Assembly (NCBI GenBank): GCA_020439745.1
Contig: JAGQSC010000025.1
Location: forward strand, 62,001-126,000
From: Acidobacteriota bacterium
GTDB lineage: Bacteria; Acidobacteriota; Holophagae; Acanthopleuribacterales; Acanthopleuribacteraceae
Length of the DNA stretch: 64,000 nucleotides
Direction: 5' to 3'
The notes under the pieces are model-generated. The model was given only the letters and a program-made list of their open reading frames with translations. It was not told the origin of the DNA and searched no databases. Position numbers and translations under genes: made by a program. Shown here one piece after another: positions 4,968 through 16,695 of this stretch (the first letter of the stretch is position 1; the number at the start of each line of letters is the position of its first letter).

Positions 4968-5513
4968 CTAGTCTTGGTTAATTTGGCGCAATGCCTGCTC
5001 GGCCAGCTGGTTGAAGTGGCTTTTCAGGCGCGGATTTACATCCGGGCATCGTGAAACAACTGTGGCTGCCCATTCCACGTAATGGCGTCGCCGCGTTTGG
5101 CTCCATCCTGAAGGGGGCGCTTCCATCACATCTTGAACATTGGCAATCTTGTCAGCCATTTTCACCATGGCGGCCCCCTCGCTTAACGTTGCCGCGTGCT
5201 CGATTTGTGCCTGTTTACGCGCTTCCTTCGGGAGTTGTTTGTCATCCGTGACTTCCTCAACCATGGTGCGTACGGCCGTGCCAAAATACTGATCCAACTC
5301 GTCCGTTGTGGTGGCTGTATCCTCCAAGGTGTCGTGAAGGATGGCAGCCATCAGGATCTCGGTATTGTCTACCTTTCCAATATCTGCCAGTACGCGTGCC
5401 ACGTAGACGGGATGATTGATGTAAGGCGACGCGCCGATGTCTTTGCGACGTTGGTCCTTGTGTTTCTTGGCTGCGAAATCAATTGCGGCAAGGAGCCTCG
5501 CGGTGTCCGTCAC
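4968..5513 (-). CDS. MESH1-like small alarmone (ppGpp) hydrolase, HD domain
   Basis: This 181-aa single-domain protein matches the hydrolase half of RelA/SpoT as found in MESH1 and stand-alone small alarmone hydrolases. It should remove the 3'-pyrophosphate of (p)ppGpp, with Mn2+. The HD metal ligands are visible: His in YINHPVYVA, the HD pair in [10 protein letters not shown] and Asp in [11 protein letters not shown]. The length fits the family (about 180 aa); there is no synthetase domain. The GTG start at 5513 overlaps the stop of the PPK2 gene by 4 nt (GTGA), so translation is probably coupled. Frames opening farther upstream run through PPK2 coding sequence and are shadows. It is the last gene of the long minus-strand run. 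Activity could also be on NADPH or another nucleotide, as reported for MESH1. Confidence 0.82.
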
Positions 5514-6379
5514 TGTTCGGATCTCAGTGACTTGCCGAGTGTGGCCATTTCGTCCAGTTGCTCTGCCGACAACTTTGGATAGGCCAGTTTCAACGACTTC
5601 AAGGTATCGACAATGATCTGGCACACGGAAAGCCGCATAAAGGATTTGGAGTCGGCCGGTACCGCATACCATGGAGCCCAAGGCCGCGACGTCTCGTTGA
5701 GGGCGTCTTGGTAGGCGTTCATGTAGTCGTCCCAATGTTGGCGTTCGCGGACATCGCCCGCTGCAAATTTCCAGTTCTTCTCTGGGGTATCAATACGGGC
5801 GAGGAACCGCTCTTTCTGCTCCTTCCGGGACACATTGAGAAAGAACTTCAGAATGATGGTCCCATTTCTGGCCAAGTGTTTCTCGTGATCTCGTATGGAT
5901 TCAAACCTTTGAGACCAAATGTCTTCGGGTAGGTAGGGTAGGCGTTGGCCTTGCAGATAGCCTGGATGCACCCGAACGACTAACACTTCTTCATAGTAGC
6001 TGCGGTTGAAAATGCCGATGCGACCGCGCTCGGGCAGGCGTTTGGCGGTTCGCCACAAGAAATCGTGGTCCAGCTCTTCTGCCGACGGTGCTTTGAAGGA
6101 GAATACCTGGCAGCCGGCAGGGTTGACGCCGGACATCACCGCTCGAATGGTACCGTCTTTGCCGGCGGCGTCCATGGCTTGAAAGACGAGTAGAATGGCG
6201 TACTTGTCTTGGGCATAGAGTGCGTTTTGCAACTCGGACATCTCGTCGATTAAGGCACTCAGTCTTTGTTCCCGTTGCTTCTTCTTGGGCGCCTTGTTGG
6301 GAGGTTGATTGGCTGCTTTTTGCATGCGGAAGGACCCGTCGAATGGGACGAGATAGGGACTTTTGACGGCTTCGAACAA
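5510..6379 (-). CDS. PPK2-family polyphosphate:nucleotide phosphotransferase
   Basis: The 289-aa protein has the PPK2 layout: Walker A-like [14 protein letters not shown] (about 68-81), the [18 protein letters not shown] block, a lid region with [19 protein letters not shown], and [20 protein letters not shown]. It should transfer phosphate between polyphosphate and a nucleoside mono- or diphosphate; the class (AMP- or ADP-using) cannot be told from motifs alone. TTG 6379 is the start, supported by GGGAG 6 nt upstream and 10 bp of spacing from the AAA gene stop. The gene lies between an AAA ATPase and a ppGpp hydrolase, which suggests that energy and alarmone balance belong to the same response. 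No membrane segments are present. Confidence 0.9.
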
Positions 6380-6389
6380 GGTTGCTCCC

Positions 6390-8108
6390 TTACCGACTCA
6401 AGTAGAACTTGAGTGTTTCGATTTGTTTGTTGATGGCCACATCGGTCATGGACCTCAATCCTTCGGGTAACAGATTGGGGTAGGAACAATGTAACGCAGC
6501 GATCAGGGATTGAAACTCGCGTTGGGTCTTGATGGATTTGCTGGCATACCAACCGCTCAATACTTCCTGAGCGGTTACCTCTGGATTCTTTTTCTGTTGG
6601 GCTAGGACCTCAGCTACCAGGTTTCGGTAGTCGCGAGCCGAGTAATAATCGGTTGCTTTGAGGATCTCTTCAATCTCTGAACCCAATTTGATGCCCTTTC
6701 GCTTGAACATCTCTTTCACGAACCGTTCGCGGGGTTCGCCTTCCAAGTCAAAAATCGGCACCTGAATGGGTGCCCGACTCTTGATGTCCGGGTCCAGTTC
6801 GTCGGGTCTGGAAGTCATCATGCCCCACAGGACCTTGCTGAGGTAGTCAGGGTTACCCATCATCTTGATGATGTTCCCCGATAGACGCATCTCAGTCTGG
6901 TGGGTATCACCGGAATGAACGCTACCAAATGCGGTGTGGGCCTCGTCCACGAGGATTAAGATCTTGCCGAAGGTACTGATATGCCAGCGCAGGAGTTCGA
7001 AGAAGCGATCGGTTTCACCGAAATACGAACCACGAATGCCAGCCAGCTCGATCACAACGCGACCCGATTCTGCTGCATAGGCTTCCAGTTGAAAGGTTTT
7101 GCCCGCGCCGTTGGGACCAGACACCAGAATGGCCGAAACGGCGGTTTCCCGATCTTCGCAGCGCTCAAAAATGCTTTTGAATATGCCGCCGGCTTCCTTG
7201 TAGCCAATGATGTCTTTAGACGTGTGAGAGGGGTACTTGACACGGATGATATCGCCCAGTTCGGCTTGAAGGATCTCGTTCACCTGATCCACCACCTGCT
7301 CTTTGGTGATCGGAGTTTTGCTGCGGCGGGCCTCCTCCAGCATATCCTTCAAATGGGTGAGTTTCAGACCTGCCGTGTTCTCAACAAACCGTCCCTTGCC
7401 ATCCTTGAAGCGGATGCGGTCTCCTTCGCGGTTAAACCAATTGACGAACGATTCTCGGTCGTCTTGCGCGGGTAGAGGGATCTCGATGTGCGTGCAGTGG
7501 GGCAGGGCATTGATTTTGTGGTTGATTTCCGATTTCACATCGTTGGCCAGAATCAGAAGATCCGGGCTCATCGTGAATCTAGGGTCGTTGACCCAAGACA
7601 GGAAGACGACCAATCGCTGACGGTCAAGATCACCCAGTCGTCCGAAGTCACCGGTAGGAAACAAGGCACCTGCATATTGAAACAACACACAGAGTGGCTT
7701 GATGTCGGGCTCTTCTTTGCGCACACGGACAAAGGCCTCCTGGATGCCGCGGATGAGCACCAATGCGGGCAGGGGACTGTGTCGGCTTGAATCGATAAGA
7801 CGTGTCATCTGGTCGCGACGGTCTTTGGGAATGACTACTCCGTCCTTGGATTCACAGATGCGCATCACTTCCATTTCAGTGGGCTTGTCCGGAAAGGAAA
7901 TGCCCGTGGCAATGTCCATCCGAATGATATTGAATTTCTCTTTCAGACTATCGACCAGCGTGGATTCGAAGGCCGAAAACGCATCGCGTTGCTGGTTCCA
8001 AAACAATCCGTGAATATCGCCTGTGAGCATGACGATGTTCTTCCGCCTCAGTTGGTAGGCCCGCCCCAGGGCGGCTAGAAAATCGGGTCGTGATTGTCTC
8101 TTGCTCAT
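6390..8108 (-). CDS. Cytosolic double-AAA ATPase with degenerate first domain
   Basis: This 572-aa protein has a classical AAA module in its C-terminal half: Walker A GPNGAGKT (about 346), pore-loop-like region GSYFGE, Walker [10 protein letters not shown], and a second region of homology with [18 protein letters not shown], which resembles CDC48/FtsH-type domains. The N-terminal half (about 20-235) looks like a second AAA fold that has lost its P-loop: [13 protein letters not shown] stands where a Walker A would be, then [13 protein letters not shown] and [14 protein letters not shown] follow. It therefore probably assembles into a ring with one active tier and acts on membrane or PspA-type partners. 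ATG 8108 overlaps the ABC ATPase stop by 4 nt (ATGA). Confidence 0.85.
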
Positions 8109-9031
8109 GGCGTGGGTCCCCATTCCTCTGGATCTACGGTTCGATAGGCATCTGCATGGCTCAGGTCGAAATCATGGATGTGACGGGCAATGGATGGGTC
8201 GAGCCCTTGTTGACGCACCTGCTCAATGAGCTGACTGATTTCGGGTGAGCTCTTAAAACTGGTGGGTTTGGGGTGATCACCGGGAATGCCACGGTCGGTG
8301 ACGATCTTAGAGCCTTCGTTATGGTCGCGGGCGGTTGTGTAATATTGAGAGAGCACCAGCAGTCGTGTTCCCAGGAACAGGGCTTCCACCAGATCGTGGG
8401 TCACAAAAAAGACCGTCATCTGAGTACGTTCCCACAACTCGAGAATGAACAGTTGCATGTCCGTACGGGTACTGTCATCCAGTGCCCCGAATGGTTCATC
8501 CATCAACAGAATCTTGGGTTCCATGATCATGGCTTGGGCAATCGCCACGCGTTGTTTCATGCCACCACTTAACTGGTGCGGGTACTTGTTGAGATCCTTA
8601 CCCAAACTCATACGTTCGAGAATCTCTCGAGCCCGGTCTGTACTCGCTTTGCGATGACGCAAGAACTTGTGGCGTTTGAGCCATCGGCTGGCCATGGAAT
8701 AATTTTCCATTTCCAGACCGAAAATGACGTTTTGCAGGACCGTCATGTGGGGGAACAACGAGTATTTCTGGTAGACGATGCCGCGGTCTCTATCAGGGCC
8801 CTGGATTTCTTTGCCATCAAGGAGCACGCGACCCTGAGTGGGACGCTCTGACCCCAAAATCAATCGCAAGAGGGTGGACTTACCGCATCCGCTGGGTCCC
8901 AGCAAGGTGACAAACTCGCCTTTCCGCACTTTCAGGTCAATGTCATTTAGGACGGTGCGCATACGGCCCTGATCGGGGTAGGCTTGATGGGCGTCTTCCA
9001 GATGGAGGATCACTGGGCGGGCCTCGTTCAT
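8105..9031 (-). CDS. ABC importer ATP-binding subunit
   Basis: The 308-aa nucleotide-binding subunit belongs to the nitrate/sulfonate/taurine-type importer group. All motifs are intact: Walker A GPSGCGKST, Q-loop YQKYSLF, signature LSGGMKQR, Walker B ILLMDEPFG and H-loop VTHDL. A C-terminal extension of about 80 residues follows the core; similar extensions occur in the 'urea carboxylase region' (guanidine-linked) ABC systems. ATG 9031 overlaps the permease stop by 4 nt (ATGA) and its own stop overlaps the AAA ATPase start, so permease, ATPase and AAA protein are coupled. It should power the adjacent permease at the inner membrane. Confidence 0.93.
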   Translation of the reverse strand: MNEARPVILHLEDAHQAYPDQGRMRTVLNDIDLKVRKGEFVTLLGPSGCGKSTLLRLILGSERPTQGRVLLDGKEIQGPDRDRGIVYQKYSLFPHMTVLQNVIFGLEMENYSMASRWLKRHKFLRHRKASTDRAREILERMSLGKDLNKYPHQLSGGMKQRVAIAQAMIMEPKILLMDEPFGALDDSTRTDMQLFILELWERTQMTVFFVTHDLVEALFLGTRLLVLSQYYTTARDHNEGSKIVTDRGIPGDHPKPTSFKSSPEISQLIEQVRQQGLDPSIARHIHDFDLSHADAYRTVDPEEWGPTP

Positions 9032-9840
9032 GATTCACCACCCACCCAGCGATAACGCTTCTTGATCCATATTCTCAGCAGGACGTCTGCTGCAAAGGCC
9101 AACAGACTCATCCAGATCACGTACGGGATGATGATATCCATGGCCACATAGCGCCGCACGACGAATATGCGGTAGCCGAGCCCTACGGATGCAGCCAGCG
9201 ACTCGCCGGCAATCAGGAATAAAATCATGGCTTTGAAGTTTAATCTTATGGTGTCCAAAACGCCCGGCATAATCTGTGGCAGTACGATCCGGTAGGTGAT
9301 TTCGAAATCGGATGCGCCGAGGGTAAGACCCTTCATAATCTGTTCACGGGGGATGGCCTTAGCACGCAGATAGGTGTCCAAGGCAATGGTGGGGAATACA
9401 CCGAGCAAGATCAATGCGATTTTTGAAATCTCGCCCAACCCAAAGACAATAAAAAGGATGGGCAATAAGGCGAGTGCAGGTATTTTGTCGAAGAACAGCA
9501 CAAAGCGAAGAAAGATATGTTCCAAGTAAGGAAAGACCCCCATGTAGAGGCCAAGTAATATCGCCAATGACAACAACGCGAGACTGTAACCCAAACGCTT
9601 CGCACTGGCTAAGCTGTCCACCCACAAGCGTAACTCGTCGTTGCGGTCAGGCTCGAACGCCGTACGTTGTATGCCATCCCACATTTCACTGAAAGTGGGG
9701 ACCACGTTATCATCAGGATTCTCCTGATGGCGAATATGGGCTGTGACTCCGTAGCCGATGATGCAAAGGAGAAACAGCATCGAGGAAAGCGCCCAGGCCG
9801 TTTTCCGGCCCGGGCGCGCGTTTAGATTGAACAGTCCCAT
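9028..9840 (-). CDS. ABC importer permease subunit
   Basis: This 270-aa polytopic inner-membrane protein has a membrane helix at about 15-34, a roughly 60-residue periplasmic loop, and then five helices of the BPD_transp_1 fold. The EAA loop that docks the ATPase is visible around residues 165-185 (EQIMKGLTLGAS with IVLPQ after it). It resembles the SsuC/TauC group and the permeases next to urea-carboxylase/guanidine genes. The long loop after the first helix is typical of that subgroup. The gene starts 7 bp after the binding-protein stop; the ribosome site is weak, which fits coupled translation. Confidence 0.9.
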   Translation of the reverse strand: MGLFNLNARPGRKTAWALSSMLFLLCIIGYGVTAHIRHQENPDDNVVPTFSEMWDGIQRTAFEPDRNDELRLWVDSLASAKRLGYSLALLSLAILLGLYMGVFPYLEHIFLRFVLFFDKIPALALLPILFIVFGLGEISKIALILLGVFPTIALDTYLRAKAIPREQIMKGLTLGASDFEITYRIVLPQIMPGVLDTIRLNFKAMILFLIAGESLAASVGLGYRIFVVRRYVAMDIIIPYVIWMSLLAFAADVLLRIWIKKRYRWVGGES

Positions 9841-9847
9841 AGGCTGT

Positions 9848-10900
9848 CTAAAGTTTCCCTTCGGCCGCCATCTTCATGAAGCTGGTATCAAACCGCATGG
9901 CTACCTTGTCGGCATTGCCTTGTACGGATCCGTCTGGATAAGAGATCCCTACAACGTCGGCGGATCGGGCATTTTCACCCAACAATCCATGCTTGAAACA
10001 GAACTGACGTACAAAATCCATTTTTTGCTTCAGCTCTTCACTGGCCGTGTAGTCTGCTGCGGCTTGGGCATCGTAAAACATGGCGGTGGTTTTGAGCTGA
10101 TTCTTATATTCGATCAGCGAACATTCCGCTGATTTGGCCATGAAGGTCAATGCCGCTTCGGCATCGGGACCCCGCTTCGACATCAGAGCCATCACTTCAT
10201 ACCAAGCGCCCGCAAGGGCTTTACCCAATTTGTCGCTCTTATTCAGGACATCCGTGCGAACCACCATCATATCGACCACTTCGCCCGGGATGTCGGCTGA
10301 AGTAAAGATCTTGTCCACGCCGGGAGTCTGTTCAATTTCCATGACGATGGGGTTCCAAGTGACCACCACCTCCTGGCTCTTATCAGCGATGAATATGGGG
10401 CCGATATCGCTGTCTGAGGTGTTGATGATCGACACGTCGCGTTCGCTCATGCCGTTGAGTTCTAAGCAACGGGCCAGTAGGTAATGGGATACCGACAATT
10501 CAACCAGACTTATCTGTTTTCCCTTTAAGTCTTTAATACCGATGCCGTTACGGGTAAGGATGGCGTCGTTGCCGTTGGAGTAGTCGCCAGTGATGATGAC
10601 GGTACTGTCGATGCCAGACGCCGCAGGCATATCAAGGCACTCCATATTGGTCATCACACAGGCATCTACCTGTTTGGCCACATAAGCCTCAACTGATGGA
10701 ATGTAGTCCATGCGTATCAGTTCTATTTCAATGCCATACTTGTCGGCCCACTTATCGAGGATCTTTGAATGGCCAGCATAATCCCAGGGCATCCAGCCCA
10801 CGTAGATGGACCAGGCTACCTTATATTTGTCACCTGCAAATGCAGGTGTGAGCGCCAGCGCCAAGGCGCACAGCACGATGAGTTGTTTCATTCTTCGCAT
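9848..10900 (-). CDS. Periplasmic substrate-binding protein, urea-carboxylase-region ABC type
   Basis: The 350-aa protein begins with a clear Sec signal peptide (RRMKQLIVLCALALALTP, cleavage near AFA|GD) and continues as an NMT1/ThiY-like binding fold. The opening KVAWSIYVGWMPWDYA and the VDACVMTNMECLDMPAASG stretch match what I remember of the 'ABC transporter periplasmic binding protein, urea carboxylase region' family. That family accompanies urea/guanidine carboxylase genes, but no such enzyme is present here, so the ligand is unknown. ATG 10900 follows AGGAGG closely. It lies 8 bp after the PspA-like gene and 7 bp before the permease. Confidence 0.88.
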   Translation of the reverse strand: MRRMKQLIVLCALALALTPAFAGDKYKVAWSIYVGWMPWDYAGHSKILDKWADKYGIEIELIRMDYIPSVEAYVAKQVDACVMTNMECLDMPAASGIDSTVIITGDYSNGNDAILTRNGIGIKDLKGKQISLVELSVSHYLLARCLELNGMSERDVSIINTSDSDIGPIFIADKSQEVVVTWNPIVMEIEQTPGVDKIFTSADIPGEVVDMMVVRTDVLNKSDKLGKALAGAWYEVMALMSKRGPDAEAALTFMAKSAECSLIEYKNQLKTTAMFYDAQAAADYTASEELKQKMDFVRQFCFKHGLLGENARSADVVGISYPDGSVQGNADKVAMRFDTSFMKMAAEGKL

Positions 10901-10908
10901 GGGTCCTC

Positions 10909-11739
10909 CTAAATATTTGGCCGATCGTCTTCTTTGGGCGTTGCGTCTTTTTCTTTGGGTGCAGCGCTTGCTTCTTTCTCTGCCTTTCGCGCGGCCAACA
11001 TTTGGTCCAATTTGGTGCGGGCGGTGGACTCACGACCTGCTTTTTCATAGGCCTTGTCCTGGGCCCTGACATCTGCACCTGCCAGCTTCTCACTGATCCG
11101 TGCCTTGGCCGTGAGCTCGCGATTGGCTTTCAATACGGCAGAAATCGGACCTCGATCGATGCTGGTTTCAAGTCCTTGTAGGCGGTCATTGAGCTCCACG
11201 ATCTGTTTGGCGGAGACGTAGTCGGCAATGGCTTCCGCCTTTTGTTGCGGGAGCTTCTCGATCTCGCGTTGCATTTCTTGTAACTGCAACATGTAACGGT
11301 CCATGGTGGCCCCGGTTTCGGTGATTTCGCCGTTCAGCCGCTCTTGTAATGCCTCGATCTCCTCAATGCGCACCTGAAATCGTTCAAAGGCTTGCGCATG
11401 TTTGTCATAGGCCGTTTGATCGCCGGCGCTTTGCGCTTGTTCGGCGAGGTTGAGCGCGCCTTCGCGTTTGGAAATCAGATCATCTTCTTCGTGATTGAGG
11501 TCCTCAAGACGCGATCGCTTTTCTTCCAAAACCGTCTCCACCTGCGCAATGGCGTCACGGAGTTTTTGATACTGCGCAACCACTTCGTCCTGGTGCATAT
11601 CGAAAGCTGCGGAGATGCCGTCTACTGATCCTGTGAACTGCTGATCTGCCGCATCCAAAATGTATCGCGCCTTACGCCAGTTCCAGTAGCGCAGATAGCG
11701 AAAGAATGCTCTGATAATTCCCACCCTTTGTTCGCTCAT
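10909..11739 (-). CDS. PspA/IM30-like coiled-coil membrane-stress protein
   Basis: This 276-aa protein is almost entirely helical. The N-terminus contains FFRYLRYWNWRKARYILDAAD, then long coiled coils fill about 45-205, and a low-complexity charged tail (KEKDATPKEDDRP) ends it. The size, the opening helix and the charge pattern resemble PspA/Vipp1 proteins, which form ESCRT-III-like assemblies on the inner membrane during envelope stress. Similarity is structural rather than by a strict motif, so a merely PspA-like coiled-coil protein is possible. GGAGGGAG lies just upstream of ATG 11739. No PspF, PspB or PspC gene is nearby; the partners here are the ABC importer and the AAA ATPase. Confidence 0.72.
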   Translation of the reverse strand: MSEQRVGIIRAFFRYLRYWNWRKARYILDAADQQFTGSVDGISAAFDMHQDEVVAQYQKLRDAIAQVETVLEEKRSRLEDLNHEEDDLISKREGALNLAEQAQSAGDQTAYDKHAQAFERFQVRIEEIEALQERLNGEITETGATMDRYMLQLQEMQREIEKLPQQKAEAIADYVSAKQIVELNDRLQGLETSIDRGPISAVLKANRELTAKARISEKLAGADVRAQDKAYEKAGRESTARTKLDQMLAARKAEKEASAAPKEKDATPKEDDRPNI

Positions 11740-11789: not shown

Positions 11790-12710
11790 CTACTCGCTGC
11801 TCGAAATCTTCTTGCCGGCATCGGCGTATATTTGATCCTGGTCAGGCCCTTCTCCGCGCTCCACTTCCCGGAGTTTCTGTTCAACCCTGCGTGCGGCCGC
11901 AACGGCTTCTTCAAGCTTGCTGGCCGTGTCCGTCCGCATGTGCAGTTCACCGCCATCGAGAAGCTGTGACACCTCCAACAAAGTGGTTTCCAAGGCGGCC
12001 TCGATGACTTCACTCTGCGCCAGTTGACGATGCATGAGTTCCGTTTTCTGCTTGTGCAATTCCAACCGTTGATGGTGACTCTTGATCCGTGTTCTGATGG
12101 CATCAATTTGGCCTTCGTTATAGCCAGGTCTGCTTTGCAGCCGACGAATATCGGCGGACCACGCAACGATCTCTTTTTTGAGATCGCGCACGTCCATTTT
12201 CTTTAATAGCTGATGGGTATCCAAAGCTGAACGCAAGCACGAGAGTCCCTCTTTGAAGGAGTCCTCCGCCAGAATCAAGAATTTGTAGGCATTGGCACGT
12301 TCGGCGGCATTGGCTTTTTCGATAAGGAACTCACGCAACTTAGCAAACGCCTGGCCCAACTCACGAGATTCTTTAGCGCCCTCGCGAAATCCCACTCGGG
12401 CACATTCTCGGTGTAGATCCTCCGCCAATTGACTGTAATCCTTGAATCGCGCACGTTTCATTTTTTCCATCAGCTTGCCAGCAAGATCGTCATAGCGAAA
12501 GAAATAGTGATAGACGAACGAGCTTGCGGTGACGATGGCAGCTGCAAGAAAGGTAGCAAATGAGGGCCTGTCGAAACTGATGATGAACATATAAAGACCT
12601 GCGACCAGCGACGCCGCTGCGGGGAACGTGGTGGTTGGATGCAGGATGGCCTCTTTCAACACGTGTCGCTGCAATTGCCCCTGAGTCGGTTTTGTGTGCA
12701 ATTCGGTCAA
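11790..12710 (-). CDS. Unknown inner-membrane protein with two TM helices and long coiled coil
   Basis: The 306-aa protein has a short cytoplasmic N-terminus, then two hydrophobic helices (about 29-48, AAASLVAGLYMFIIS, and 52-70, FATFLAAAIVTASSFVYHYF) forming a hairpin, then about 230 residues of amphipathic helix and coiled coil ending near GKKISSSE. I do not recognise the family. The topology would leave the coiled coil in the cytoplasm, where it could bind the PspA-like protein encoded next, as PspB/PspC do in the classical system. TTG 12710 overlaps the preceding stop by 4 nt (TTGA) and GGAAGGGA lies upstream. A 50-bp gap separates it from the PspA-like gene. Confidence 0.75.
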   Translation of the reverse strand: MTELHTKPTQGQLQRHVLKEAILHPTTTFPAAASLVAGLYMFIISFDRPSFATFLAAAIVTASSFVYHYFFRYDDLAGKLMEKMKRARFKDYSQLAEDLHRECARVGFREGAKESRELGQAFAKLREFLIEKANAAERANAYKFLILAEDSFKEGLSCLRSALDTHQLLKKMDVRDLKKEIVAWSADIRRLQSRPGYNEGQIDAIRTRIKSHHQRLELHKQKTELMHRQLAQSEVIEAALETTLLEVSQLLDGGELHMRTDTASKLEEAVAAARRVEQKLREVERGEGPDQDQIYADAGKKISSSE

Positions 12711-14254
12711 AGGGCATTCCCTTCCAAGGCAATGAACTCCACACGTGACTGGCGGTATTGGTAGGCGCGCATAGATTCACCAGGCTTTTTTTCGGGCGGT
12801 ATGCTTGAGCCGACCCCCTTGGCCATTAGTCGGTTTGCATCTAGGCTGTGAACCGCCTTTAGATATTGCACAACGCTCTGCGCCCGTTCAAGCGAAAGTT
12901 TCTCGTTTTCTGATTCGTCACCGCCCGGTGCGGTATGTCCGCGAATAATCACTCGGTAGTTGGGGTAATTATGGGCGAGCAGCGCCGCAATTCGGTCCAC
13001 GGTATCCTTACCATCCTGGGTGAGCAGATTATTCCACGATTGGAAAGTAATCGGTTCCACACGAAATACACCAACCTCCCGCAGCTGGTTCCATTGTTCG
13101 GGGTCCAGTGGCCTAAACGTGACCGGACCGGATGACTGGGCCACAGGCGCCGCACCCGTCGCAGACTTGAGATCCTCAAGAAACACGCTGTTGGTAATTA
13201 GATATGGATTTCCTTCCAAGGGGTCTCGGTCCAAGCGCTTGGTTCGTAGCAATACGTCGGTATTGGCAATAATGGTTGAGATCATGCCGTCCTTGGCGGG
13301 TTGGTCGGCTCGGGAGCTGATACCAAACAGCTCCGTACAATTCTCGTGGAGATCGAACCAGTCTATTTTGTCGACAATTGCCGACAGTTCGTGCTGCTTG
13401 AGGTCGGTGGCTCGGGCCATTTCCTCAAGCATCTGATCGCGGTTATTGGCATAGACCGACAATGTGCGAAAGTAATGTTTGAGGAAGTCCATGGCGAGAT
13501 CGGGTTTCTTCTTGATGAAGTCCCGGTGAAACACAAACACATCAAGGATGTACCCCGAGAACTTGTCGGAACCCCAAACATACGTCATTCCAGGCAATCG
13601 CATGGCCCGCGACAGGTCTGGTTCCCATAGGACAAACATATCGCCTTGGCCCTTTTCGGCGCGTTGATACACGTCTCGAGAACCATTTACTTCGACGCGC
13701 CATTGGTCGCCCGACTTGAGTTGGGCCAGGTCGAAATCAGCGATCGTGAGGTCCAGTAAGAACGCGCTGGGTGAATCGGCTGTGTACACAATGGCCAGCT
13801 GTCCATCATCCAGATCTTGGACTTTCTTGCTAGGTAACTTTTCGGCAAAACCAACAATGCCATCCGCACCTTTGGACTCGCAAATCGCGGCGACGATGAC
13901 GCCCGGAAACTGGTGGGGAAGTCCATGGGTTAAATAGGAATTGACGGGCAGGACAATGCAGTCGTATTCGCCCGCGGCAAATTTTTGCAATCGCGCTGCA
14001 TAGGTGCCGCCATCATCGGTGAACTGAATGCCAATTCCGTCTTTGGATGCGGACTTCTTCATCACGGGCGAGGTGATGAACCAATACCCCAAGTAATTAT
14101 CACCACCAATGCGCACCGTACCTTTGGTGGAACTGGCATCGGAGGTGTCTATTAAGCCCTGCTTAAACAAAAGCGGCATGGCAAGTTTCCATGCCAGAAT
14201 CCCCAGCAACCCGATCACAATCAACAGCAGAGCACCCGCTGTGCTTTTGCGCAT
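12707..14254 (-). CDS. Membrane-anchored substrate-binding domain fused to OmpA-like peptidoglycan-binding domain
   Basis: The 515-aa protein starts with an uncleaved-looking membrane anchor (about 4-28, ALLLIVIGLLGILAW). A NMT1/ThiY-like binding domain follows (about 45-320; GTVRIGGDNYLGYWFITSP, CIVLPVNSYL), and an OmpA-family peptidoglycan-binding domain ends it (about 400-510; VIIRGHTAPGGD, LSLERAQSVVQYL, SRVEFI). The architecture would tie the inner membrane to the cell wall while holding a solute-binding lobe in between. ATG 14254 lies 1 nt after the VWA stop, with AAGGA upstream inside the VWA gene. A frame opening at 14476 is only an extension through the VWA gene. Confidence 0.88.
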   Translation of the reverse strand: MRKSTAGALLLIVIGLLGILAWKLAMPLLFKQGLIDTSDASSTKGTVRIGGDNYLGYWFITSPVMKKSASKDGIGIQFTDDGGTYAARLQKFAAGEYDCIVLPVNSYLTHGLPHQFPGVIVAAICESKGADGIVGFAEKLPSKKVQDLDDGQLAIVYTADSPSAFLLDLTIADFDLAQLKSGDQWRVEVNGSRDVYQRAEKGQGDMFVLWEPDLSRAMRLPGMTYVWGSDKFSGYILDVFVFHRDFIKKKPDLAMDFLKHYFRTLSVYANNRDQMLEEMARATDLKQHELSAIVDKIDWFDLHENCTELFGISSRADQPAKDGMISTIIANTDVLLRTKRLDRDPLEGNPYLITNSVFLEDLKSATGAAPVAQSSGPVTFRPLDPEQWNQLREVGVFRVEPITFQSWNNLLTQDGKDTVDRIAALLAHNYPNYRVIIRGHTAPGGDESENEKLSLERAQSVVQYLKAVHSLDANRLMAKGVGSSIPPEKKPGESMRAYQYRQSRVEFIALEGNAL

Positions 14255-14255
14255 C

Positions 14256-15014
14256 TTAGGGTGTTCCTTCAAAGGCTGATTCGTCGTAATCAGGCAATTC
14301 GGCCAGCGTCTCCTCCAACCCACGCGCCAGATCTTCAAAGCTATCTGCAGCGCGGTATGAAGTAGCATACGAGCGAAGAGGGTGATTGGCTTCAACACAA
14401 AGGCCAATGGCATAGATGGGGAAGCCCAATTCCATGGCATATATGGAGGCTTGTGGGATGCGTTCAGCGATCCCATCGGTGACCACTACGATGCGGTACT
14501 CGCCATAACCCAGTTGCTGTTTATACTGAGCTGCTAACTGATTGGCAGCAAAAACAATTGCGTTGGCCAGAGGCGTGTCGGAACCGGCATAGACCTCATC
14601 TAATGCTCGGTTGAACTGAGCGCGGTTGTTCTGACCCAAGGGTACCCGTTCGCCTTGACCGTTGTTATCAAAAACGTAAAGGCCAAGGTTGATGTCTTCT
14701 GGAATCTTCTTGACGAATTCCTTGACTGCCCACTGAGCACCCTGCAGTTTGGAACTGAACGATTGATCGCCATGGCAGTCCGCGTCCGGTGCATCGGCCA
14801 TGCTGCCGCTACCATCAAACACAAAATAGAAATTTCGTGTCAATGCAACCCGGGCATTTGGATCCGAATCGTCCAGTTCGATTTCCTTGCGTGTGATGTT
14901 GGCTATGATTTTTTCCACATCCACGGCCTGTTCAGCGGATGGAGAACCACACCCCATCACCATCAGCGTGAGCAGGGTCAAGCCCTGTGTTTTAGTCCAG
15001 CGGCACAAATTCAT
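14256..15014 (-). CDS. Von Willebrand factor A-domain lipoprotein
   Basis: This 252-aa protein has a signal sequence ending in a lipobox (LMVMGCGS), so it is probably lipidated at Cys22. A VWA domain follows from about 60 to 230. The metal-ion-dependent adhesion site is complete: DGSGS at about 70, Thr in SDTPLANAI, and Asp in VVVTDGIAE. It probably binds a partner protein in the periplasm. The start at ATG 15014 overlaps the preceding gene by 23 nt and uses a GAGG site inside it. Placement between the two binding-OmpA fusions suggests it associates with them. Confidence 0.88.
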   Translation of the reverse strand: MNLCRWTKTQGLTLLTLMVMGCGSPSAEQAVDVEKIIANITRKEIELDDSDPNARVALTRNFYFVFDGSGSMADAPDADCHGDQSFSSKLQGAQWAVKEFVKKIPEDINLGLYVFDNNGQGERVPLGQNNRAQFNRALDEVYAGSDTPLANAIVFAANQLAAQYKQQLGYGEYRIVVVTDGIAERIPQASIYAMELGFPIYAIGLCVEANHPLRSYATSYRAADSFEDLARGLEETLAELPDYDESAFEGTP

Positions 15015-16695
15015 CTAGCTCGGCCTCGATTTGTTTGATGCGGAACACGACGCGTCGATTGGCAGCCCATTCGTCTTTGGTGCGCGGCGGACTGAATTTT
15101 GGGCTCGATGTGCCCATGCCCACAGACACGAACTGAGACTGATCCACCTTGATGCCCTTACTCGATGCATATTTCAAGAAACTACTGCGTACCGATTGAG
15201 ATCGCTCCAGAGAAAGATTCTTAGCTTGCTGCTCCATCTGAGCTATTTCAACGGATGACGTACCACTTTGTTTGGCTTTCAGGATGCCCAAAGGATCGGA
15301 ATGGCCCTCAATAATAATCAATGAACCGCCATAGGTATCCGCAATTTCCAGGGCCTTCTGAAAGTCATTGGCGTAACGTGCGTCGCTAAATTCACTTTGG
15401 TTGGGATCGAAATTGATCTCGATTTGAAAGAGCGTTCCTTCCTCGGCCCATGCCGTGGGTTCCACAGAAATGCGTTGCTCCACTTTGGAGGCTACCTTCT
15501 GTGTGTCGAACTTTGGCTTTGCCGCCACGGGCTTGGCATGGGTGAGGCCCTTGGCGAGGCTGTTGTAGTCCCAATTGGGGTTGGTGAGGGCCACCGACGA
15601 TTTCATCAGCTTCATATCCTTGAAACTAGATTGAATCTCCTTGGTGAGTCGGTCCAGTGATCGGGTGGTCCCTTCGCCCGTAAAAAACGATACGTTGCCA
15701 TCAAATCCCACGAATTCGCAATCGGCAAGCAGCGCTTCCACATCGGGAATCGCTTGAGGTGCACCCAACAGCAGATCCGCTGAACGGCTCATGAGTTGCT
15801 GGTATTCCGACTGACGACTTTTTTTGTTGGACATCAGTTGATCCAGTGACTCTTGGGCCCGTAAAAGAGCATGCGTGAACTTTTCAATTTGGGCTTTGTT
15901 GGACTGAAAATAGTCCGATCTGACTGCATAAACATCGGCAATCACACGGTTCGCGGTCTTGGTACTCAACAGGATCTTGGCGCCCTTCACCGAACCCGAA
16001 GCGCCCGTGCCTGATGTACCGCCGGAAGTGAGGTTCAAAGCATCGGGAATGATGCACATGACCGCATCCAGTGAATCGTCTTCTAGAAATGCTGTGACCG
16101 GATCGATGATCTTCCCGCCCGTATCTTCGGTAGGGAGCGTTAGATCCGAGAGCCACCTGAATGTGACCGACGATACAGGTACCTTGGCTGCCGTTAAGAT
16201 GTTGGCCGCGTAGTCCATGTGGGGACCATAAAGTTGAAGGCCAATGGATTTGTTCTTCAGTCGCTCGGGCTTACTGACATTGCGAACCACGATCGCATCG
16301 CCGCCGTTGGACCAGGTGAGTTGGTAAATAACCACCAGGTCTAGGCCCTGTTTTTTGAACGTTTCAGCAGCCGCATTGATCATACCCAAGGTGCCTCGTA
16401 TCAAAGGCGTCTCGCCTTGAAGGCACTGGGCCACCTGATTGGTGAAGTCATTTTCGACGCGCAACTTGACGTTGAGACCCGACTCCTTGAAGATGCCCGC
16501 CGAATCGGCATAAATTGTTGCCACATCGCCACCCCAGGTGATCAACGGCACATTGAAGTCTCCTGCCTTGACGGGCTTCTTGGTTGCAGTCACCACGTCA
16601 CTTAGCGGTTTTCCATCCAAGTAGGTCGGTTTTTGGGCTAGCAACCCAAATGCTGCACAGCTCAGTATCAGTGAGATCCATATCCTCTTCGCCAT
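14992..16695 (-). CDS. Exported substrate-binding domain fused to OmpA-like peptidoglycan-binding domain
   Basis: The 567-aa protein has a signal peptide (MAKRIWISLILSCAAFGLLAQ), an NMT1/ThiY-like binding domain (about 45-400; VPLITWGGDVATIYADSAGIF, GLNVKLRVENDF) and a C-terminal OmpA domain (about 430-560; IEINFDPNQSEF, IIIEGHSDPLG, NLSLERSQSVRSSF, NRRVVFRI). It is a paralogue in layout of the protein at 12707 but is secreted rather than membrane-anchored. ATG 16695 is chosen because GGGAGGAG lies 5 nt upstream; an earlier in-frame start at 16710 lacks such a site. It is the first gene of the eleven-gene run; the operon promoter should lie in 16696-16959. Confidence 0.9.
   Translation of the reverse strand: MAKRIWISLILSCAAFGLLAQKPTYLDGKPLSDVVTATKKPVKAGDFNVPLITWGGDVATIYADSAGIFKESGLNVKLRVENDFTNQVAQCLQGETPLIRGTLGMINAAAETFKKQGLDLVVIYQLTWSNGGDAIVVRNVSKPERLKNKSIGLQLYGPHMDYAANILTAAKVPVSSVTFRWLSDLTLPTEDTGGKIIDPVTAFLEDDSLDAVMCIIPDALNLTSGGTSGTGASGSVKGAKILLSTKTANRVIADVYAVRSDYFQSNKAQIEKFTHALLRAQESLDQLMSNKKSRQSEYQQLMSRSADLLLGAPQAIPDVEALLADCEFVGFDGNVSFFTGEGTTRSLDRLTKEIQSSFKDMKLMKSSVALTNPNWDYNSLAKGLTHAKPVAAKPKFDTQKVASKVEQRISVEPTAWAEEGTLFQIEINFDPNQSEFSDARYANDFQKALEIADTYGGSLIIIEGHSDPLGILKAKQSGTSSVEIAQMEQQAKNLSLERSQSVRSSFLKYASSKGIKVDQSQFVSVGMGTSSPKFSPPRTKDEWAANRRVVFRIKQIEAELDEFVPLD

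Follow-up and report, generated by a model that had tools for sequence, protein, structure and literature searches.

A conserved OmpA1-VWA-OmpA2 gene trio in an acidobacterial operon: a possible periplasmic sensor or strut

Gene content of the operon

We analysed a stretch of 64,000 nucleotides (nt) from an Acidobacteriota bacterium (contig JAGQSC010000025.1, positions 62,001 to 126,000; hereafter the window), which carries on its minus strand a nine-gene operon with two binding domains fused to OmpA-type domains. The gene order is OmpA1, a VWA protein, OmpA2, a coiled-coil protein with a transmembrane (TM) segment, a PspA-like protein, a free substrate-binding protein of family TIGR03427, an ATP-binding cassette (ABC) permease, an ABC ATPase and an AAA ATPase. 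The first three genes, here called the trio, are the most constant unit of the operon. The trio is often accompanied by this set of membrane-remodelling and import genes. Because it is also found where the binding protein of the importer is missing, a role as envelope sensor or strut seems a better fit than that of a simple nutrient shuttle.

OmpA1 (14992..16695, 567 residues) starts with the ATG at 16695, preceded by GGGAGGAG, and stops at 14992. Its N-terminus is signal-peptide-like as read from the sequence alone, and is followed by a TauA/SsuA-type binding domain (residues 45-380, 15556..16563) and an OmpA-type domain (residues 422-555, 15031..15432) that contains Asp467 and Arg498. The VWA gene (14256..15014, 252 residues) overlaps the end of ompA1 by 23 nt; its product has a lipobox-like VMGC, found by eye, and the metal-site motifs DGSGS, TPL and TDG. 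After a gap of 1 nt comes OmpA2 (12707..14254, 515 residues), which consists of an N-terminal membrane helix (hydrophobic residues 8-26, 14177..14233; helix 4-37 in the model), a binding domain of the same type (residues 45-359, 13178..14122) and an OmpA-type domain (12776..13045) with Arg457 and, at the position of the Asp, Ala442. The conserved start of OmpA2 is the ATG at 14254, right behind the VWA stop, and its stop lies at 12707. The start of the listed open reading frame (ORF) at 14476 was rejected: what it adds falls within the VWA gene, and the orthologues in the alignment begin at or close to 14254.

OmpA1 matched Pfam NMT1 at 26.1 bits, passing the cut-off of 20.5, and its OmpA domain (PF00691) scored 23.6 bits, below the cut-off of 27.2. 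OmpA2 exceeded the same OmpA cut-off with 55.7 bits and had no NMT1 match at E ≤ 0.01; in NCBIfam its binding domain reached TIGR03427 (43.3 bits, cut-off 333.9) and an SsuA family (35.5 bits), both below cut-off, and OmpA1 had no TIGR03427 match at E ≤ 0.01. Searching the PDB by sequence gave no match for OmpA1 and matches over the OmpA part only for OmpA2, and two weak taurine-/sulfonate-type matches for the free binding protein, the second titled nitrate transport protein. Profile comparison with hhalign showed that OmpA1 and OmpA2 are paralogues along their length (E 2.3e-8 over 403 columns), and that a relationship also exists between OmpA2 and the free binding protein (E 9.7e-12).

AlphaFold2 models of both chains had a mean pLDDT (predicted local distance difference test) of 82.8 for OmpA2 and 78.0 for OmpA1. 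In these predicted structures, residues 45-359 of OmpA2 superimposed on TauA (6ssy_B) with Z 30.2 and a root-mean-square deviation (rmsd) of 2.4 Å over 287 residues, and residues 45-380 of OmpA1 with Z 22.3 and 4.3 Å over 285; residues 422-555 of OmpA1 matched the peptidoglycan-binding domain of TagL (5m38_C) with Z 12.7 and 1.9 Å over 111. Both proteins thus consist of a two-lobed type II binding fold of the TauA/SsuA (NMT1) type followed by a C-terminal OmpA domain. The first-pass annotation had proposed just this, an NMT1/ThiY-like fold joined to OmpA in each protein, one secreted and the other anchored at its N-terminus; the family scores and the models bear it out, as do the signal-like start of OmpA1 and the hydrophobic helix of OmpA2, and the N-terminal domains are of the periplasmic binding type. 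A chance fold or a wrong reading frame was considered and rejected: orthologues of both proteins were found at 42-75% identity, which excludes chance, and the structure models agree. Compared with TauA/SsuA proteins the fold is the same, but here it is fused to OmpA, shares only 15-16% identity with TauA and, in OmpA2, is anchored in the membrane. OmpA2 also matched the regulatory domain of CmpC/NrtC (9uai, 9uak, 8wm7) with Z 23.4-24.6, a binding-protein fold that serves regulation and not delivery, as the title of entry 9uak also says. That domain is fused to an ATPase and cytoplasmic, whereas the lobe of OmpA2 is fused to OmpA and periplasmic. On two Vibrio plasmids the OmpA2 orthologue is recorded as "phosphate ABC transporter substrate-binding/OmpA family protein"; the fold matches, which are of the TauA/SsuA type, do not support the word phosphate.

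The remaining genes share this strand, and the spacing between neighbours ranges from -19 to 50 nt. The coiled-coil-like protein with a membrane segment (11790..12710, 306 residues) overlaps the end of ompA2 by 4 nt and has no Pfam family over cut-off. It is followed by the PspA-like coiled-coil protein (10909..11739, 276 residues), named from its operon position, the free substrate-binding protein (9848..10900; TIGR03427, 489.3 bits, cut-off 333.9), the permease (9028..9840; BPD_transp_1, 66.4 bits), the ABC ATPase (8105..9031; 129.4 bits) and the AAA ATPase (6390..8123; 50.7 bits). The earlier description of the two fusions as a pair was right about their domains and had left out the VWA gene between them and the PspA-like and AAA genes downstream.

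Operons with such genes have been described. The main text of Ravi et al. (2024, mSystems, PMC11237479) describes PspA/Snf7-TM/AAA operons with an ABC transporter and a PBPB-OmpA protein. Going by that text, the gene kinds appear to be the same as here (PspA, coiled coil with TM segment, AAA, ABC ATPase, permease and binding-OmpA protein), but where it has one fused protein, the window has two, with opposite states of the peptidoglycan pair and a VWA gene between them, together with a third, free binding protein; in addition, we found lineages with the trio and without the free binding protein. The AAA, ABC ATPase, permease and binding-OmpA genes of that operon type are present in the window, and the protein at 11790..12710 is a candidate for its "Snf7 homolog with a TM segment". 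The assignments to PspA and Snf7 are candidates that rest on position and coiled-coil character. The PspA-like protein had no match to PF04012 (cut-off 33.9 bits) at E ≤ 5; two of ten aligned relatives did match, with a best E-value of 0.00053, and the one shown fell below the cut-off. Profile comparison with a protein that adjoins a gene for a fused substrate-binding protein and OmpA domain (SBP-OmpA) at locus L068 and itself reaches PF04012 (36.1 bits) was weak, with a probability of 2.3%. In the published type the AAA protein also has a second, inactive AAA copy at its N-terminus; the window protein has one Pfam AAA domain (residues 332-455) and no Pfam match in its N-terminal half at E ≤ 0.01. 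The main text of PMC11237479 contains no mention of VWA, von Willebrand, vWF, TelA, toxic anion or tellurite. Beyond this partial account we found no description of a trio with VWA in the open-licence literature, and the supplements of that paper (Text S2.2, Table S3) may hold more. Nor did we find there any account of the constancy of the trio, of a partner that lacks the Asp, or of cases in which the importer's binding protein is missing.

Distribution of the trio with and without the transporter

A scan of genome contigs gave 13 loci. The complete nine-gene order was found in L007, L010, L011, L012 and L014, and in a genome of the same genus (G366, L040). Locus L013 is identical to L012 (Acanthopleuribacter pedis) over 21.5 kb on two scaffolds, which may reflect either a recent duplication or an assembly duplicate. 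Contig ends cut L008, L009 and L017-L019, L015 is OmpA2 alone, and in L016 unrelated genes interrupt the operon. Two further loci, L042 and L043, are divergent (about 30% identity) and keep the order, though the ORF in the place of the coiled coil has no match. The order of the trio was kept in records from Acidobacteriota, Aminicenantes, Chloroflexi and Vibrio plasmids. Among named strains, Acanthopleuribacter pedis KCTC 12899 and Sulfidibacter corallicola M133 possess the operon.

Within the phylum, the OmpA2 alignment matched in 381 of 396 genomes at E ≤ 0.001, most of the matches listed being to the OmpA domain alone. Among these listed matches, five genomes (G000, G366, G246, G016 and G012) had a near full-length OmpA2, and G005 (120 bits) and G021 (71 bits) weaker, partial ones. 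We also observed in G005 and G021 (L044 and L045) a four-gene cassette of one SBP-OmpA protein with an intact Asp/Arg pair, a free binding protein, a permease and an ATPase, a possible simpler ancestor of the operon.

At E ≤ 1e-25, OmpA1 was found in one of 251 genomes in the phylum of a Chloroflexi metagenome-assembled genome (MAG) and one of 395 in that of a Bacteroidia MAG, in each case the MAG itself, and in 41 of 84 genomes in the phylum of the Poribacteria MAG G400, here called the Poribacteria. Seven of 72,556 plasmid records matched OmpA1; six of them, all from Vibrio, covered at least 80% of it at 37-38% identity. By eye, OmpA1 of the Chloroflexi and Nealsonbacteria MAGs carries a lipobox, so that the protein seems to stay attached to the envelope there too.

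In some of these lineages a TelA protein stands at the PspA position, namely in L016/L073 (92.8 bits) and in the Vibrio plasmids (168.2 bits in L100, and by annotation). In L100 (Vibrio rotiferianus pAM7) and L101 (V. penaeicida pIFO15640) it is annotated "toxic anion resistance protein", and the ABC ATPase has moved to the front; no AAA gene was found within 29.6 kb of L100. A distant OmpA1-VWA pair (124 and 90 bits) was seen on V. coralliilyticus p380 (L102, 8335-11380), with no OmpA2 or rest of the operon within the 18.9 kb read. In L073, from the 800 kb Nealsonbacteria MAG G404, TelA replaces PspA, and several genes intrude, including an ORF that by eye resembles a transposase and a pair of ORFs, 380 and 399 residues long, that resemble each other. 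The AAA protein of this locus reads VDQAE, where the other six of the seven aligned read VDEAH.

Whereas 41 of the 84 Poribacteria genomes have OmpA1, only nine had a free binding protein at E ≤ 1e-10, and both were present in five (G400, G662, G680, G681 and G682). At that threshold the free binding protein was thus unmatched in 36 of the 41, including the nearly one-contig genomes G702, G738 and G740; the search did pick up divergent free binding proteins, at 115-251 bits, and so had the sensitivity to detect such copies. In 24 Poribacteria neighbourhoods the trio was in order in 22, pspA was present in one and aaa in three, and a transporter gene in none of the 24, on the stretches of 15-19 kb that were fetched. 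When a wider stretch was read in G681 and G682, genes for PspA, OmpA2, the free binding protein, permease, ATPase, coiled coil and AAA appeared in the vicinity. Many of the Poribacteria trios adjoin a DUF4159 protein that bears a twin-arginine (TAT)-like signal (135.9 bits in one that was scanned; relatives in 21 of the 24 neighbourhoods). Proteins of about 263 and 598 residues without a Pfam family were often seen near the trio as well (L104-L107, L117-L136). In both trees the neighbourhood sequences grouped as a single clade next to G012 and G016, in which the transporter is present; OmpA1 of G400 (L011) fell outside it. For the Poribacteria, loss of the transporter is the simpler reading.

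A second case was found in G246, where aaa begins 1 nt past the pspA stop, and the free binding protein, permease and ABC ATPase do not lie between them. Across this genome, the free binding protein or permease was matched at E ≤ 0.001 by one divergent locus only (L068, contig C293), a compact arrangement of PspA, one SBP-OmpA protein, permease and AAA; no free binding protein and no ABC ATPase were found on this 10 kb contig. Two further MAGs were not used as arguments. The Bacteroidia MAG G403 was dropped as an example of a binding protein without permease, as a permease orthologue lies on another contig (388 bits); in this fragmented MAG, AAA went unmatched at E ≤ 1e-5 and so did the PspA-like alignment at E ≤ 0.001. 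The Chloroflexi MAG G405 has the trio and an AAA match, with no orthologue-level free binding protein (the 45-bit match is OmpA2 itself) or permease (62 bits).

Conserved motifs and the peptidoglycan pair

In OmpA2, D52, G129, D131, S163, E211, P212, G234 and D238 were invariant in all 38 sequences, 22 of which belong to Poribacteria neighbourhoods where the stretch read held no transporter gene. In OmpA1, W54, G55, W128, S129, D133, G157, P158, H159, P217 and D218 were present in 41 of 41 sequences, OmpA1 of G246 being cut there. These near-invariant residues probably sit in loops around the cleft, judging from where it lies in folds of this kind, and the binding-site-like motifs are conserved in the Poribacteria as well. 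The metal-site motifs of the VWA protein were present in all eight aligned sequences. The two tethered lobes and the free protein carry three different motif sets, each conserved, which suggests three ligands or roles. As to candidate ligands, urea, taken from the name of TIGR03427 (putative urea ABC binding protein), was not accepted, since nothing was found that ties the operon to urea. Guanidine was likewise not accepted. An excerpt of PMC12186494 states that some guanidine degraders import it via ABC transporters; nothing was found that ties the operon to guanidine, and no Rfam family reached its gathering score in the window, hence no known guanidine riboswitch.

The OmpA domains differ at the residue pair linked to peptidoglycan binding. 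In Acinetobacter baumannii OmpA, D271 and R286 are critical for binding diaminopimelate, as calorimetry with D271A and R286A indicated in the excerpted text of PMC6572160. After alignment to that domain, both residues of the pair were found in 42 of 42 OmpA1 sequences. In contrast, the Asp position of OmpA2 was Asp in none of 38 (Arg in 24, Ala in 6, Gly in 6, Ser in 2), although the Arg286 position was kept in all 38. Sixteen control OmpA domains, four from this genome and twelve strong OmpA2 matches from the phylum (one of them the SBP-OmpA protein of G021), kept both residues without exception; L026 was also given as a control and had no OmpA match. The single SBP-OmpA proteins of the simpler relatives G005, G021 and L068 keep the Asp too. 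Relative to the OmpA C-terminal, TagL and A. baumannii domains the fold is the same; OmpA1 retains the pair with a longer stretch from Asp to Arg, and OmpA2 lacks the Asp. Since the pair is whole in OmpA1 and the Asp absent in OmpA2, these alignments lead us to expect that OmpA1 alone holds the wall in the standard way. The first-pass annotation had called both domains peptidoglycan-binding; the sequences do not support this for both, as OmpA1 alone keeps the Asp/Arg pair.

Possible roles of the trio and flanking genes

We favour a sensor or scaffold over a shuttle, and think it quite possible, if short of probable, that OmpA1, the VWA protein and OmpA2 form one periplasmic sensor or strut. 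OmpA1 would be fixed to peptidoglycan through its OmpA domain and display its binding lobe there, and OmpA2 would hold out another lobe, related to the first, from the inner membrane. The VWA protein, anchored in the membrane and with its metal-site motifs intact, would join the two, and the state of the link would be set by ligand occupancy or by the distance between wall and membrane. We infer a physical complex that binds ligand and signals from the lobes to the partners of each lineage, usually a PspA-like or TelA coiled coil with an AAA ATPase and the ABC importer, with a possible effect on membrane remodelling; in most of the Poribacteria read, the partners would be a different gene set. 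A bolder form seems unlikely to us as a whole: a self-contained wall-to-membrane sensor, with paralogous lobes on peptidoglycan and inner membrane and a metal-dependent VWA link, that signals ligand or spacing to a remodelling machine made up of an ESCRT-III-like protein (PspA or TelA) and AAA, and that can serve the ABC importer as a client without depending on it.

Several findings weigh against a sensor or strut. Transporter genes were present in nine of the ten loci outside the Poribacteria that span from trio to aaa (the window, G366, L007, L010, L012, L014, L042, L043 and L073, the exception being G246), so that the trio may yet have a role in transport. G680, G681 and G682, members of the Poribacteria clade, possess the transporter; with a single clade whose nearest relatives bear it, the 36 genomes amount to about one event and G246 to a second. 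ABC systems elsewhere in the Poribacteria genomes could use the lobes, as the genome-wide search was for the free binding protein. OmpA2 of G246 sits on a long branch and has plainly changed motifs (GDGSLSHWF, REP), and the VWA protein might not bridge OmpA1 and OmpA2 at all.

The main text of Ravi et al. (PMC11237479) reads the fused binding-OmpA protein as serving the ABC transporter: the OmpA domain holds peptidoglycan and the lobe captures a solute that the linked transporter moves. To this we add a variant in which the solute is handed on via the free binding protein. Such tethered donors are possible, though on balance rather doubtful. The relatedness of all three lobes fits them, as do the high share of operon-spanning loci with a transporter and the four-gene cassettes of G005 and G021. 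So does L068, in which SBP-OmpA stands beside a permease and, with no free binding protein on the contig, may be the sole lobe available. The Poribacteria stand against them, with a trio and no free-binding-protein match in most OmpA1-bearing genomes and no transporter gene on any neighbourhood stretch, those of G681 and G682 lying just outside, and so do the three distinct motif sets. Tethered and permease-fused binding proteins are common. The earlier argument that a tethered lobe cannot easily feed a permease is accordingly weak, given L068; the conclusion drawn from it, sensors or scaffolds and no ordinary shuttles, is strengthened by the operon having its own free binding protein and by the persistence of the trio without such a protein, the sensor role itself being the favoured reading.

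A decidedly improbable alternative is that the folds bind nothing small and are pure spacers that set the distance between the membrane machinery and the wall. The drifted motifs of G246 would suit this, as would the uneven conservation of OmpA2, in which 8% of binding-domain columns and 12% of OmpA-domain columns were at least 95% conserved. However, both proteins have particular residues that hardly vary from phylum to phylum, and in OmpA1 more columns reached that level in the binding domain (20%) than in the OmpA domain (17%). We give little chance to receptors that bind a peptidoglycan-derived compound near OmpA1 and report damage to the PspA-like and AAA proteins, or recycle the fragment: the expected place of OmpA1 on the wall and partners of the membrane-stress type, a weak point for the window protein, would agree with it, but the folds closest to both modelled lobes belong to proteins that bind small sulfonates, a phosphonate and compounds like these.

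The fused proteins have been read in print as serving transport. If the trio is a sensor, it would offer a defined periplasmic input through which the wall could signal to PspA-type membrane machinery, and a contrast between OmpA domains with and without the peptidoglycan pair, and its occurrence in named strains and on Vibrio plasmids makes the operon testable.

Promoter-like sites in the window numbered 6, with 9.1 expected from shuffles, and terminator-like sites 17, with 12.7 expected (standard deviation 3.6), so neither delimits the transcript. The two genes directly downstream of aaa (4968-6379, minus strand) encode a polyphosphate kinase of the PPK2 type (231.5 bits) and a protein with an HD domain (HD_4, 63.3 bits). 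A PPK2 match was absent from the 13 loci scanned, and the same-genus genome G366 keeps PPK2 together with a similar downstream ORF.

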